Shown piece by piece: positions 5,331 to 10,939 of a stretch of 62,438 nucleotides of DNA (its first letter is position 1; the number at the start of each line of letters is the position of its first letter). The translations under genes and the position numbers were made by a program. Below the pieces are notes generated by a model. That model made no database searches, was not told the DNA's origin, and saw only the letters and a list, made by a program, of their open reading frames with translations. The DNA comes from Candidatus Saccharimonadota bacterium. GTDB lineage: Bacteria; Patescibacteriota; Saccharimonadia; Saccharimonadales; Saccharimonadaceae. The stretch spans positions 1-62,438 of the forward strand of contig JAFYXW010000013.1 of NCBI GenBank assembly GCA_017557865.1, in the 5' to 3' direction.

Positions 5331-7673
5331 CTACAATTCAAATGGTTCCCACTGCCCAGTTTTTCCATCACCAAATACGTACTCGGGATCGTCATTCAAA
5401 TAGAAACGTTCATTCACGACATTAATAATCCCGCCAAATAGCCCTAGATTACGATGCTCGCTAATATATTTTTGCAACGCATTCGCCTTTTGTGCAGCGT
5501 TCTTGTCCTCGGCGGTCCAGCCACTCTTTGTATCAAAAATGCCAATTCTCCCATCATTAAACTTTACGATATAATCCGGATAAAATGCTTTGCCATAACT
5601 CTTTGCATCCTCGCCAAGTTCAAAATACTTTATTGCAAAATACTTATCCATTTTCTCGCCATTCTTATACCACCACTCAACTTTAGAAGACCTGTCTAAG
5701 GCTTCTTCGAAAGGGACTTCTGTCGAAGGTGGGGCATCTGCTTTACGGAAAAACGGCAACGTAGCAGTTTTACTCATCCCAACTTCAACATACCTGTCGC
5801 TAAACTCATCGACTTGTGGAATACTAAAATCAAAGACCACATCCTGCCTTTGCCTGCGCTCAAACATTTCCTTACGGTTGACTTTGTCATATTGGTCAAT
5901 TGCTCTATCAAAAATATCAGCAAATACTCTCTGATTATGCTCAGAACAAGTAAATATTCTTTGGACATCAATCCATTCAATGCCCGCCTTTTTAAACCAA
6001 GGTTTCAAAGTCCCAACAATCTTCGTTTCAGAGCGAGCAAAACTTTTAAATCTCCCACAGTAGCCACGAAGCACATCGCGAAAGACTCTCTCCATAATTA
6101 GGTCACCCATAGTTAGATTTATAGTTTTTATCTCGTTTTGTTCCATCACATCATCAACGTTTTTCACAACAACATCTGAAATAACCGGCGTCATTAACTC
6201 TTCAGGATGAATTTCAAGTTTTTCATCGATCCTTTCATATCTCTTCTTTTCTGAATCAGGTTCGCCCACGCCAAAAGCTAAGTCTAGCTCCCCTTCAAGT
6301 ACTTGTTTAAAATTCGCTTTCAGGTCACCATAATCGACACGATGAACATAAATAGATTCAGGCAAAACAATGCTAACACCTGGCCTTAAGAAAGATTTTT
6401 TGTACTTAATTAAATTCTTAGCGTCGGTATCGTCTTGATCAATCTTAATAGTACGGCCGCTATTTGTATACACATATGCGCTATCAAGTAATTCATTTCC
6501 GTAGTGCTTTGCTTCCGGCATGCGAAGCACACGCCCTACTGTCTGGATCTGAAAAGCCTCATTTTTAATCTCACGAAGCATCACAAGAACTTGTGCCCTA
6601 GGGCAATCCCAACCGAGTGCAATAGCCTGTTTAAATATAAGCACCTCAACCATATTATTATTGTTAGTTATATCGTCAAGATTCTCTTTTTCTTCCGAAA
6701 GCCAAATTGCAAGATTCTTATTGTAGTATTCATAACCTTCGTTCGACAAAATTTCCTCAACAATAGCGCGTACTTTCGCATCTAGCTCACTTAGCTCTTC
6801 CTTATTCTCAGTTGGAAGTTGTATGGCCATCAACGGATTTATGCTCAACCCAAGCTTTTCGTATTCTTTTGCAAGCTCATCACGCTTCTTCAGCCCGGCC
6901 ATCACCGCGACAGTAATTGCATCACGATCCAGTTCATCGGCGATTGAATCAATATTGCTATTAACCAGGACTTGTTTTTTAATCAACCCACTATCGACTA
7001 CATCGTCCGTAGAAACCTTAATCCGACGATACTTGTCTATATCTTCTAAAGAATTGTACCTAGGGGTTGCAGATGCCTCAATGACCAAAGCAGGTTTAAT
7101 GATGTCTCGAACAAACATTTGTGAGTTTTCACCATAAAAAGTTTGATGGCTTTCATCAACAATGATAATGGTTTTTAGGCCTACTTCGCGTGTGGCATCC
7201 AAAATATCTTGGATGTTTCTGCCGTTTTCGCCTTTTCTCACGGCCACATTATTAAACTCCCCTTTTTTAATGCCCTTCTCTTCATCATCTTTTGCCGCGC
7301 GCTTAAAAACTTTTTCCCAGTTTGTAAAGATAATTGTATTTTCTTGTAGCGCTCCTGCCTCCAGCGACTCAATATCAATTAATCTATACTCGGTATCAGC
7401 AAGAGCATCTGCAAGCTTTTTATGGCTCTGCGTATGAAGCTTATTTGGCGCAGCCCACACATACACATATTGCTTCGACAAATCGCGTTCTTTTAATTCG
7501 CGCAGGATTTCTGCTAGCATAATAGTTTTCCCAGAGCCAGTACAAGACTGCAGCACAAAATGGGCTGGGCTATCGTCGCCTTTCGCCTCACGAACATTTG
7601 CAATTTCAAGAAGCTCATAAATATGGCTCACGGATTTATGAACCGCTTCATTCTGAAAATCTTTAAGCTCCAT
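5331..7673 (-). CDS. res: Type III restriction enzyme Res subunit (helicase-nuclease)
   Basis: A 780-residue superfamily-2 DNA translocase with nuclease. Walker A SCTGSGKT is at residues 43-50, followed by YVWAAPNKLHTQS (motif Ia region), the DEAD-like box IIIVDESHQTF near residue 174, IEASATPRYN (motif III), the long insertion, and FKQAIALGWDCPRAQVLVMLREI with QIQTVGRVLRMPE (motifs V-VI). The C-terminal PD-(D/E)XK nuclease shows as YPDYIVKF...GIFDTKSGW near residues 690-717. With Mod it cleaves DNA carrying unmethylated head-to-head sites. The ATG follows the mod stop with no gap, so the two are translationally coupled. It looks intact. Res proteins are often longer (about 900-1000 residues), so this is on the short side. 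Confidence 0.95.
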   Translation of the reverse strand: MELKDFQNEAVHKSVSHIYELLEIANVREAKGDDSPAHFVLQSCTGSGKTIMLAEILRELKERDLSKQYVYVWAAPNKLHTQSHKKLADALADTEYRLIDIESLEAGALQENTIIFTNWEKVFKRAAKDDEEKGIKKGEFNNVAVRKGENGRNIQDILDATREVGLKTIIIVDESHQTFYGENSQMFVRDIIKPALVIEASATPRYNSLEDIDKYRRIKVSTDDVVDSGLIKKQVLVNSNIDSIADELDRDAITVAVMAGLKKRDELAKEYEKLGLSINPLMAIQLPTENKEELSELDAKVRAIVEEILSNEGYEYYNKNLAIWLSEEKENLDDITNNNNMVEVLIFKQAIALGWDCPRAQVLVMLREIKNEAFQIQTVGRVLRMPEAKHYGNELLDSAYVYTNSGRTIKIDQDDTDAKNLIKYKKSFLRPGVSIVLPESIYVHRVDYGDLKANFKQVLEGELDLAFGVGEPDSEKKRYERIDEKLEIHPEELMTPVISDVVVKNVDDVMEQNEIKTINLTMGDLIMERVFRDVLRGYCGRFKSFARSETKIVGTLKPWFKKAGIEWIDVQRIFTCSEHNQRVFADIFDRAIDQYDKVNRKEMFERRQRQDVVFDFSIPQVDEFSDRYVEVGMSKTATLPFFRKADAPPSTEVPFEEALDRSSKVEWWYKNGEKMDKYFAIKYFELGEDAKSYGKAFYPDYIVKFNDGRIGIFDTKSGWTAEDKNAAQKANALQKYISEHRNLGLFGGIINVVNERFYLNDDPEYVFGDGKTGQWEPFEL

Positions 7674-9419
7674 CTAGGCCTCCTTTTTCCTAAATATCTT
7701 TTTATAAACTTCAAGGACCGATTCCGGGATCGAGCACGCCGTCCATTCTAACTCGGTGTCCTCCGGAATTTCTTCCTCATTGGCGTGGCGATTATAGCTA
7801 AAGTTGTAGCAATGCACCGGCAATTTCTCAGTGTTAAGCTCCTCAACCTTTTCCCAAGTCTCCGCAATCGCAAACTGGTCAAAAATTATCGGCACAAACA
7901 CTTTGTTGTTTTTATAAAATCTATACTCTGGTGTACTTGCTACAAAATCAAATGCATCCTCACGAATGCAAATCATTTCAGTGCATCTCGTCACCAATGC
8001 TTCACGGTCATCATCTGTAGTCTTCCCCTTTTCAACAAAATCTGTTTTGTAATACCTTAAATTCGCAGCCAACCCATCTGAATATTTGCTCCTATCCAAA
8101 CGAGTACCGGTAATTACGGTCTTTATACGCGGGTATGTCACTTTTTCTGCAATCCCTTCGGCCCCGGCGTCAGATTTTCCATTAGCCTCATTATTAGTCA
8201 CAAGTATAAATTGTCTATGTCCGCAATCTTCGTTATTAAGTTCCATTACCGCTTGCCCAGTCGTTCCTGACCCGGCAAAAAAATCTAATATAATTCCGCC
8301 CGACGGGACTAAACTTATTAGATATTTTATTAGTCGTACGCTTTTTGGGTACCCAAAAAAACCTCCCATACCTAATTTTTCTAAGTCATATGAGCCTTTA
8401 TCAGTTATTTCAATAACACTTTCCAAATCGTCATACCCAACTTTTTCGAGAATAGGTTGGAACCTAGTTCCCCTTAAGAATAGTCTTTTCAATTCTTTCC
8501 CAAATTTATTGTATATTGGAGCATCTGACCCACTTTTTATTTTATCTACATATTTTCTAATATCATTCGGGCAAGACCATCGAGCTTTTAGCTCAACGTC
8601 ATTCAACAATTTACCATTTACTATTTCAATTTTACCACTAATCAGATTGACGTCCTCATTGCCTCCAGTACCCCTAGGATGATCATATGATCCATCCTCT
8701 ACGCCTTCAACTTCAAGCCCAGCTGGAAATAGCAGCACAGGCTGCGTCTGATTCTCTTTACCAGTGGTGCACCTAGCCGATTGCGATATTCTCTTACCGC
8801 TCAAAATCTTTTTGTCTCCCAAATTTAAACCATAAGCAAGAATATACTCATGTACTTGTTTTTTGTTCTTATCGTTAGTTTGATTTGGCGTTTTATTCAC
8901 TATATTGGCTATAAAATTATTTTCCCCAAATATTTGATTGCACAATAATCTCAAATTAGCCTGCTCTATATCATTTATAGAAATAAATATTACACCATCA
9001 TCCGACAATAAATTTTTTGCAAGTCTCAAACGTTTATCCATAAATGAAAGCCATTTAGAATGGCGAAATGTATCTTCTTTATCGACATAGCAATCGTCAT
9101 ATATAAAATCCTTGTTGCCAGTATTGTATGGCGGATCAATATATATTACATCAATCTTCCCAGCATGAGTATAATTAAGGACAGCCAGGGCATGGTAATT
9201 ATCCCCCTCAATAATAATGTTGGTAGGCCCGCCTTCACCCTTAAGAATAGCCTTGCCTTCAACTTCTTTCAAAACTGGCAACTTTTTTTCGCACTCTTCA
9301 ACAACTTTTTCTGGTTTTATTTTTTCTTCCCAAACCAAACCATAGTTCTTCTGTCTCTTCAATTTTTTTATTTCTTCAATTAATTCTTCTTTTGTGTGCT
9401 CATCCCAACTTTGAGACAT
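7674..9419 (-). CDS. mod: Type III DNA methyltransferase Mod subunit
   Basis: A 581-residue beta-class N6-adenine or N4-cytosine methyltransferase. DPPYNTG (motif IV) is at residues 95-101, followed by a target-recognition stretch and then the AdoMet site DFFAGSGTTGQAV near residue 381. This DPPY-first order is typical of Mod. An N-terminal helix (DEHTKEELIEEIKKLKRQ) probably makes contacts within Mod2Res. I chose ATG 9419 (MSQSWDEHTKEEL), preceded by AAGGAAG; the longer frame would translate the structured leader. It modifies the host's own sites and recognises targets for Res, encoded just downstream. No long simple-sequence tract is present inside the gene, so the familiar poly-repeat phase variation of mod genes is not evident. 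Instead the leader is heavily structured. Confidence 0.95.
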   Translation of the reverse strand: MSQSWDEHTKEELIEEIKKLKRQKNYGLVWEEKIKPEKVVEECEKKLPVLKEVEGKAILKGEGGPTNIIIEGDNYHALAVLNYTHAGKIDVIYIDPPYNTGNKDFIYDDCYVDKEDTFRHSKWLSFMDKRLRLAKNLLSDDGVIFISINDIEQANLRLLCNQIFGENNFIANIVNKTPNQTNDKNKKQVHEYILAYGLNLGDKKILSGKRISQSARCTTGKENQTQPVLLFPAGLEVEGVEDGSYDHPRGTGGNEDVNLISGKIEIVNGKLLNDVELKARWSCPNDIRKYVDKIKSGSDAPIYNKFGKELKRLFLRGTRFQPILEKVGYDDLESVIEITDKGSYDLEKLGMGGFFGYPKSVRLIKYLISLVPSGGIILDFFAGSGTTGQAVMELNNEDCGHRQFILVTNNEANGKSDAGAEGIAEKVTYPRIKTVITGTRLDRSKYSDGLAANLRYYKTDFVEKGKTTDDDREALVTRCTEMICIREDAFDFVASTPEYRFYKNNKVFVPIIFDQFAIAETWEKVEELNTEKLPVHCYNFSYNRHANEEEIPEDTELEWTACSIPESVLEVYKKIFRKKEA

Positions 9420-9420
9420 T

Positions 9421-9626
9421 GCAGAAACTTCCTTCTGCAATACATATTTAGCTGTTATTATGCAAATCTGCCCCAAACAAAAAACGGGGCCCCATATCGG
9501 TTTGCAATACACCAACATCAGAATCAAATCCTCAGCTGGGCCGAATAGGACCCCGTTTCTGGATTTGATTCCACTGCAAGTGTATTGCACAGATTCTTAA
9601 TGTTGATGTATTGCCCCTTAATTATA
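9421..9626 (-). promoter_or_regulatory. Long structured 5' leader of mod with competing stems
   Basis: TATAAT on the minus strand (9621-9626) implies a leader of about 195 bases before mod. In RNA sense it holds arm A (9614-9592), arm B (9588-9561) and arm A' (9531-9504). A' pairs with A over about 22 bases, or alternatively with B (GCAATACAC/GTGTATTGC plus an 11-base perfect stem). AAACGGGG (9558-9551) can pair with CCCCGTTT (9489-9482), followed by Ts, giving a terminator-like hairpin that encloses A'. Next to the ATG, GCAGAA/TTCTGC (9421-9438) traps the Shine-Dalgarno in its loop, and another TGTATTGC copy (9437-9444) adjoins it. The layout looks like an attenuator. The structures are read by eye. 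Confidence 0.6.
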
Positions 9627-9660
9627 CCGCATTTTTGTCTTCAAAGTAAACAACTAATAC

Positions 9661-9957
9661 TTACCAAAACAAAATCACACGTTTAATTCGCATTCTTATT
9701 ATTCGACGCCTATTATATTTAATTATCTTCTCAAACTCATCTGGCATGAATTGCCCCTTTAGTTCATTGCATTTCTTGTGAGCAAGCTGATAATTTTCTA
9801 TTGTATTCTTCCCGCCTTTAGCTAAAGGAATAATATGGTCAATGGTCAAGTCATCCAAATCTTTAATCTTTCGTCCACATATTGCACAGCGTTTACCTCT
9901 CTCCCAAACCAACTGTAGTTTCATTTTTGTCTTTGCACGGCTAGTTTTTGTTACCAT
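9661..9957 (-). CDS. HNH endonuclease
   Basis: A 98-residue protein with a compact HNH fold: CxxC at 24-27 (CAICGRK), LTIDHIIPLAKGGKNTIENYQLAHKKCNELKG with the catalytic D-H at 40-41, a second conserved His at 60 and Cys at 63. The two cysteine pairs probably hold a zinc. The C-terminal tail is strongly basic (NRRRIIRMRIKR). I start at ATG 9957, one base after the stop of the ImmA/IrrE gene and preceded by a GGAG-like sequence; an upstream in-frame ATG at 9984 is an alternative. It lies between a regulator-protease pair and a type III restriction unit, so a DNA-cleaving defence role is likely but not shown. Confidence 0.88.
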   Translation of the reverse strand: MVTKTSRAKTKMKLQLVWERGKRCAICGRKIKDLDDLTIDHIIPLAKGGKNTIENYQLAHKKCNELKGQFMPDEFEKIIKYNRRRIIRMRIKRVILFW

Positions 9958-9958
9958 G

Positions 9959-10561
9959 TTATTCCCCAACTCCAGGGAATGCATCACGCATTCTCCTTGC
10001 AATTACAACATCAGACACTTTAAAATGTTTTCTTACCAGTGCGAGGATTTTGCCAAGCTCTACTGAACTAGCATTCCAATAATTACGAACAAAACTACCA
10101 TCAAACTCATAGTCTAATACTCTCACTAGCTCTTCTTCTGGCACTAACAAACTTCCAGCAAAATAGTTTGCTTGAAATTCAGCATAGTTGTTTAGTATGT
10201 TTTGCGATATTTTTATCCACTTTCCCATCTCTTTCACGTTTCTAGGATAATATTTTCTGTGTAGAAAAAAGTGGCCAAGCTCATGCGCAACACTAAATCG
10301 ATACCTGTTACTATCTTTCTCATATTCATATGAATCAACATAGATAGATGTAAAATCCATCGAAATAAAAGCATCTATGTGTTTTGCTTTTGCCAAACCA
10401 GGAATCGGCAAAATACTTATTTCCAACTCATCGCAGATTTCTTCCACATCGATTGGGAATTCTCTACCGCCATAATATTTTTCTAATACTTCTTCCGCGC
10501 AACTTATTATTTTCTGTTTATTCAAGTAAGGAATTTGCCCACCCTCACCTAAATAAGTCAT
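9959..10561 (-). CDS. ImmA/IrrE-family metallopeptidase
   Basis: A 200-residue M78-type zinc protease. The catalytic helix reads FSVAHELGHFFLHR (HELGH at residues 93-97), with the third ligand probably E128 in NYAEFQANYFAGSLLVP, a typical family match. ImmA-type proteases cleave a partner XRE repressor after DNA damage or other signals, and the partner here is the XRE gene just upstream in the same operon. The C-terminal part (ALVRKHFKVSDVVIARRMRDA) is helical and may sense or bind the partner. It sits six bases after the regulator stop and one base before the HNH start, so proteolysis of the XRE protein could switch on the HNH nuclease. Whether it reaches mod-res, which has its own promoter, is less clear. 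Confidence 0.9.
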   Translation of the reverse strand: MTYLGEGGQIPYLNKQKIISCAEEVLEKYYGGREFPIDVEEICDELEISILPIPGLAKAKHIDAFISMDFTSIYVDSYEYEKDSNRYRFSVAHELGHFFLHRKYYPRNVKEMGKWIKISQNILNNYAEFQANYFAGSLLVPEEELVRVLDYEFDGSFVRNYWNASSVELGKILALVRKHFKVSDVVIARRMRDAFPGVGE

Positions 10562-10567
10562 ATATTA

Positions 10568-10939
10568 CTAGTCCTCCTCCCCAGATTTTTTAATAAGATC
10601 TAATAATTCTTGCACCTCATCTTCATCAAGCTCTTTCTTTCTGAGCGTCCTATAAAAAGCAGGGAGTACAGACGCAATTCTTTCATCATCGTGTAAGTCA
10701 GATGGTAATTCACACTTCGCAATTGCCGCTAGATCCAAAAACTCTTGCCACTCATCAGTTCCTCTTTTTAGACCAAGAGCAAGCCCAATCTTCGCAAGTT
10801 TATCCTGATCTTTCGGCGGGAGAGTTATGCCATTTTCAAGACGTGATATATAAGCCGCGTCAAAACCATTCTTTTTTGCAAACTGACGAACTGTGCCAAA
10901 CTCTCTCCTTCGTAATTTAAAGAATTCACTAAAAGTCAT
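10568..10939 (-). CDS. XRE-family transcriptional regulator
   Basis: A 123-residue protein with an N-terminal helix-turn-helix (FFKLRRREFGTVRQFAKKNGFDAAYISRLENG at about 6-37) followed by an acidic helical C-terminus (KKELDEDEVQELLDLIKKSGEED) suited to interaction with the adjacent ImmA/IrrE protease. AAGGAG precedes the ATG. A TTGACT-17-TATACT promoter lies at 10970-10998, and a perfect 10-bp inverted repeat (10947-10971) spans the start of transcription, which suggests autorepression. It is the first gene of the defence operon. Confidence 0.9.
   Translation of the reverse strand: MTFSEFFKLRRREFGTVRQFAKKNGFDAAYISRLENGITLPPKDQDKLAKIGLALGLKRGTDEWQEFLDLAAIAKCELPSDLHDDERIASVLPAFYRTLRKKELDEDEVQELLDLIKKSGEED

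Follow-up and report, generated by a model that had tools for sequence, protein, structure and literature searches.

The window analysed here is a 62,438-nt stretch covering contig JAFYXW010000013.1 of a Candidatus Saccharimonadota bacterium (GCA_017557865.1, a genome of 694 kb), and all positions refer to this stretch. Its minus strand carries a type III restriction-modification (R-M) operon in which, by Pfam, mod (an N6/N4 methyltransferase gene) is followed by res (a helicase-nuclease gene). Between a TATAAT box and the ATG of mod lies a leader whose segments can pair with one another in more than one way. A preliminary description had read this leader as a candidate RNA switch or attenuator. 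The question raised by the locus is whether the leader is such a switch, and what it would control.

The start codon of mod was placed at the ATG 9419-9417, which corrects the preliminary description. An upstream extension of the coding region was rejected: the frame is open to 9590 in the window only, and the homologous loci in genomes G097 and G093 have no in-frame upstream ATG or GTG. Further upstream, genes for an XRE-type regulator, an ImmA/IrrE peptidase and an HNH protein form a conserved module (window 9661-10939, minus strand, and loci L100-L108). It lies upstream of most leaders homologous to that of the window (window-type leaders), and the genes that separate it from the leader vary.

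The elements of the leader are collected in Table 1. Arm C is complementary to arm A over 15 nt at 93%, followed by a bulge and further pairs, and to arm B over 29 nt at 79%, in blocks of 9 and 11 bp. T1 pairs with T2 over 18 bp, then come six U. Hairpin F has an anti-A copy (GUAUUGC) and GCAAU in its arms. The competing arms, the terminator, the Shine-Dalgarno hairpin and the octamer found four times, directly or as its complement (9437-9444, 9504-9511, 9581-9588, 9607-9614), were all present as first described, with coordinates right to within a base or two. The terminator-like AAACGGGG/CCCCGTTT stem was also recovered, but the helix proved longer, namely the 18 bp of T1:T2. Folding of the minus-strand leader gave -73 kcal/mol (z = -4.9), and none of 200 shuffled sequences was as stable.

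Table 1. Positions of the genes, promoter elements and leader segments in the window.
Feature	Position	Strand	Remarks
Type III res	5331-7673	-	780 aa; Pfam ResIII, E 1.1e-13; abuts mod directly
Type III mod methyltransferase	7674-9419	-	581 aa; Pfam N6_N4_Mtase, E 2.8e-30
Hairpin F	9419-9443	-	covers the Shine-Dalgarno AGAAGGAAG (9436-9428); ends at the start codon
T2, 3' half of terminator, and U-run	9479-9502	-	T2 9502-9482; U6 9484-9479
Arm C	9504-9531	-	partner of A or B
T1, 5' half of terminator (AAACGGGGTCCTATTCGG)	9541-9558	-	T1:T2 helix
Arm B	9561-9588	-	rival of A for pairing with C; B:C forms the antiterminator hairpin, whose apical loop contains T1
Arm A	9593-9614	-	at the predicted 5' end; helix of about 22 bp, interrupted by a bulge, with the outer part of C
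-10 box TATAAT	9621-9626	-	alignments and promoter scan
-35-like hexamer TTTACT	9645-9650	-	18 nt before the -10 box; consensus scan; not conserved in homologues
XRE-type gene	10568-10939	-	three genes upstream of mod, within the conserved module

An architecture scan (a -10 box, an adjacent arm, its complement and a T-run) over 690 kb of the source genome returned five hits, against five in the reversed sequence. The mod leader had the longest helix of those five (17 bp, the others 13-14 bp) and a perfect TATAAT. It occurs once in the source genome, which led us to reject a multicopy or mobile element there. The decisive evidence for the putative switch is its conservation in homologous leaders.

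A consensus scan placed a TTTACT-18-TATAAT promoter at 9650-9621, so that the predicted transcript begins at arm A. In the alignments the -10 box was conserved in all homologues, and the 20 bases 9626-9607 were identical in all of them. An extended -10 (TGn) was seen in 8 of 9 window-type leaders and in 43 of 48 surface-type leaders (the relatives described below), although the window itself lacks it, and the distance from -10 to arm A is fixed in both classes. This conserved -10/TGn at fixed spacing supports a transcription start at arm A, but is not proof of it.

When 174 genomes of the genus were searched at the DNA level, nine more leaders were recovered with E values of 1e-10 or lower, giving ten genomes in total. 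The contigs belong to Candidatus Saccharibacteria assemblies, several of them from ruminant gut. A covariance model returned the same ten leaders and seven weak ones, and among 393 genomes of the order its matches were confined to this genus. A hit in Bacteroidales (L056) turned out to be a chance pattern match with no element around it, and a viral origin was rejected, the pattern being absent from IMG/VR contigs. In the alignment, invariant blocks (-10 to arm A, GTTGGTGTATTGC and the start-codon hairpin) alternate with diverged ones.

Compensatory change was analyzed in nine distinct leaders, which come from two clades of one genus; their mean B:C duplex energy was -38.2 kcal/mol within leaders and -22.7 kcal/mol between clades. 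For T1:T2 the means were -28.0 and -17.6 kcal/mol, and the best between-clade pair (-21.5 kcal/mol) was weaker than the weakest within-leader pair (-26.7 kcal/mol). The T1:T2 helix measured 18-20 bp in 9/9 leaders, each with a U-run, which at the sequence level describes an intrinsic terminator maintained by compensatory changes. RNAalifold independently returned the terminator stem with double changes (U-A to C-G, G-C to A-U). B:C, which encloses T1, was likewise kept through compensatory change, as expected of a mutually exclusive antiterminator. The same segments paired less well on the opposite strand (B:C -26.6, T1:T2 -19.4 kcal/mol), and this stronger sense-strand pairing indicates that selection acts on the sense RNA. 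A:C pairing was -24.2 kcal/mol within leaders and -23.3 kcal/mol across them. Arm A is nearly invariant in its class, and A:C is therefore assigned there mainly by analogy with the surface-type class. Across all 10 leaders hairpin F hardly varies, which puts it beyond the reach of within-class covariation.

The reading of the mod leader as an RNA switch or attenuator thus gains from the covariation check that the preliminary description had proposed, since compensatory changes were found in both B:C and T1:T2. In the sequence data we found neither of the two outcomes it had named as contrary, a start downstream of the repeats or a lack of compensatory changes.

A compact promoter-to-terminator unit could also be the gene of a small RNA (about 135-150 nt) that has a promoter and a terminator to itself and acts in trans, mod being transcribed by read-through or from elsewhere; the terminated product would indeed carry sequence able to pair with the mod start region. 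However, the start codon of each of the ten window-type loci follows the terminator by about 40-90 nt and sits within a conserved hairpin of the same motif. Moreover, the unit is single-copy in the source genome and no stand-alone copy exists among the ten loci. We consider a small RNA improbable, and a cis-acting attenuator remains the preferred reading.

The genes downstream of the leader differ between genomes. It precedes a type III mod in G000, G093, G097 and G106, and a different, Eco57I-type system in G010, G024, G137, G144, G153 and, judged by the first codons, G132. This second system consists of a small MmeI-like methyltransferase piece and an Eco57I-type methylase, with a ResIII/T5orf172 helicase where the contig allows. 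We infer that R-M cassettes were exchanged beneath a retained leader. In L106 (G153), a transposase-like gene on the reverse strand, 1825-2862 bases past the element start, splits the Eco57I-type methylase. Two purposes had been suggested for the switch, and neither fits these loci well. Delaying Res is not something the leader alone can do, since mod and res abut (7674/7673) and the leader is expected to gate both. A response to Mod is also doubtful: with the same leader before a non-homologous R-M system, sensing of one particular Mod protein is unlikely.

The mod genes of the genus were searched for directly, with clear hits in ten genomes. The mod leaders of G036, G010 (a second system), G171 and G123 are unrelated in sequence and follow the same plan (-10, A, C, T1:T2 and T-run); those of G098, G131 and G130 do not show it. 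In genus g11, five mod genes carry the GGAAC-type leader of G010, four detected by scan (G385, G393, G302, G386) and one by inspection (G351), and the mod genes of G294 and G185 lack it. The sequence-unrelated mod leaders have a hairpin equivalent to F or a copy of A. A second copy of A occupies the start-codon region of most GGAAC-type leaders and pairs with C at about -19 kcal/mol, versus about -16 kcal/mol for A itself. This copy reaches significance in L140 and the majority of GGAAC-type leaders, and is weaker in L148. In window-type leaders and L143 it is absent, and an anti-A copy of mixed significance is found there.

The weak hits served to build a second covariance model. It matched 69 of the 174 genomes, several of them with hit counts that are lower bounds, and found the window leader again at E 2e-5. 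Stretches of G145 amounting to 400 kb yielded 21 hits with this model; they had been picked partly for the hits they hold, and the density should not be read as typical of the whole genome. When those stretches were scanned independently for the architecture, 25 hits came up, about 20 of which were surface-type, versus 5 in the reversed sequence. The leaders L153-L172 stand before about 20 surface-protein paralogs in these 400 kb, every one of which has a promoter and an attenuator-like leader to itself. Several G145 hits lie at contig ends, which suggests assembly-breaking repeats. Most of the downstream genes inspected open, by eye, with a signal-peptide-like segment, and one of four gave a weak Fib_succ_major match.

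In surface-type leaders the A:C pairing is private to each leader. On average 13.2 of 14 positions paired within leaders versus 9.0 across them (0 of 2000 permutations, in a test that ignores relatedness among leaders; the strand asymmetry is independent of relatedness). All 16 arms measured in G145 differ. The A:C cells held 65 G.U and 7 A.C, and 62 of the 65 wobbles had U in A and G in C, making the 5' arm a systematically weakened partner. In some surface-type leaders, e.g. L120 and L043, a further T1 copy (such as GTGGCACCGCAAGGGG) lies downstream of the terminator; pairing of this copy with T2 might open the hairpin at the start codon.

These relatives also bear on a metabolite riboswitch, for instance one sensing S-adenosylmethionine, as the controller of methyltransferase genes. 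Both downstream R-M types encode methyltransferases, and some loop and junction bases are invariant (CGGCCC, ACCG). However, neither the window leader nor any relative tested matched one of 4227 Rfam families at gathering score, and the relatives precede surface-protein genes, with helix arms that vary freely. A riboswitch is thus very unlikely. Equally small is the chance of leader-peptide attenuation, in which a short ORF in arm A would be translated and the ribosome position would set the fold. An ATG, GTG or TTG does stand at the start of A in 39 of 48 surface-type leaders, where a leaderless start is conceivable, but window-type leaders have none of these codons at that place, and in the surface-type class that frame shows the same scatter of distances to the first stop as the other frames do; there is no conserved short ORF in either class, for want of a start codon in one and of a conserved length in the other. 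Finally, inverted repeats serving at the DNA level as operator, recombination site or mobile-element ends are the least probable reading, despite GCAATAC repeats in both orientations and the conserved upstream module in most loci, because the helices tolerate G.U but not A.C and their pairing is stronger on the sense strand, an RNA signature, and the element is single-copy with its position fixed between -10 and start codon.

Altogether, the best explanation is very probably a cis-acting dual transcription attenuator with a second, translational gate. That the alternative helices would form as RNA and exclude each other is well supported by the alignments and folding predictions. It is likely that the leaders attenuate transcription, and we infer termination, resting state and trigger as follows. 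Transcription would start at or just before arm A, as the conserved -10 suggests. The emerging arm C would be captured by B (and A) into a long hairpin holding T1 in its apical loop, away from T2, and RNA polymerase would read through into mod-res. If capture failed, the T1:T2 terminator (18-20 bp and the U-run) would form and stop transcription after about 135-150 nt. For the read-through mRNA, hairpin F would form a second gate at the ribosome-binding site that it covers.

In window-type leaders the antiterminator state was computed to be 6-16 kcal/mol more stable than the terminator state, and B still held C when the first 30 nt were kept single-stranded. Equilibrium folding thus predicts read-through as their resting state, and with so clear a ground state some event would be needed before the terminator acts. 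In GGAAC-type leaders the two states are close in energy, and in several of them the T2 partners are split between the states. With the first 30 nt held single-stranded, the terminator became the best fold in L140, L143 and L148. As for the trigger, surface-type arms vary freely yet stay complementary, so they do not make up a conserved pocket for a ligand. Something general acting on the 5' arms is more likely, such as the speed or pausing of elongation, processing of the 5' end, or a factor that binds the conserved GCAAUA.

Known bacterial transcription attenuators (PMC2965389) share the 5' leader, the intrinsic terminator and the mutually exclusive antiterminator. They also form "regulons" before non-homologous genes, as one element does here. 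Unlike them, the present leaders have an antiterminator arm right where the transcript is predicted to begin, adjacent to the -10 box, two arms competing for one, and a second gate on the ribosome-binding site. The main text of that survey does not contain the words restriction or methyltransferase. Control of R-M systems has been described through methyltransferase autorepression, antisense RNA (EcoRI, Eco29kI) and C proteins (PMC4824078, PMC3874152). Here as there, the expression level is set from within the locus, but none of those controls is described as a terminator/antiterminator leader. For the type III system EcoP1, a review describes separate mod and res promoters, a possible antisense promoter, and stabilisation of Res by Mod (PMC3874151). 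The type I toxin mRNA aapA3 of Helicobacter pylori forms metastable hairpins that sequester the Shine-Dalgarno (PMC6733600). Hairpins forming during transcription would cover the ribosome-binding site in both cases, whereas the present leader has a predicted transcription terminator as well and belongs to an R-M operon. We found no description of an attenuator for an R-M system in the open-access literature that was searched.

A terminator/antiterminator leader common to unrelated R-M systems would be a further control route for such systems, and the leader appears to be kept while its R-M cargo is exchanged. It is possible, although rather unlikely, that in Saccharibacteria this architecture adjusts the expression of each gene separately, in four or more sequence-unrelated versions before type III mod genes and a multi-copy version before surface paralogs, with private antiterminator arms and a 5' arm detuned by U.G pairs, perhaps as independent stochastic on/off switching without a dedicated regulator. 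As the arms vary while the pairing stays, the leaders amount to a natural mutational experiment on attenuator design, and those before surface paralogs offer a regulon open to testing in ultra-small bacteria, a group in which gene regulation has been little explored.
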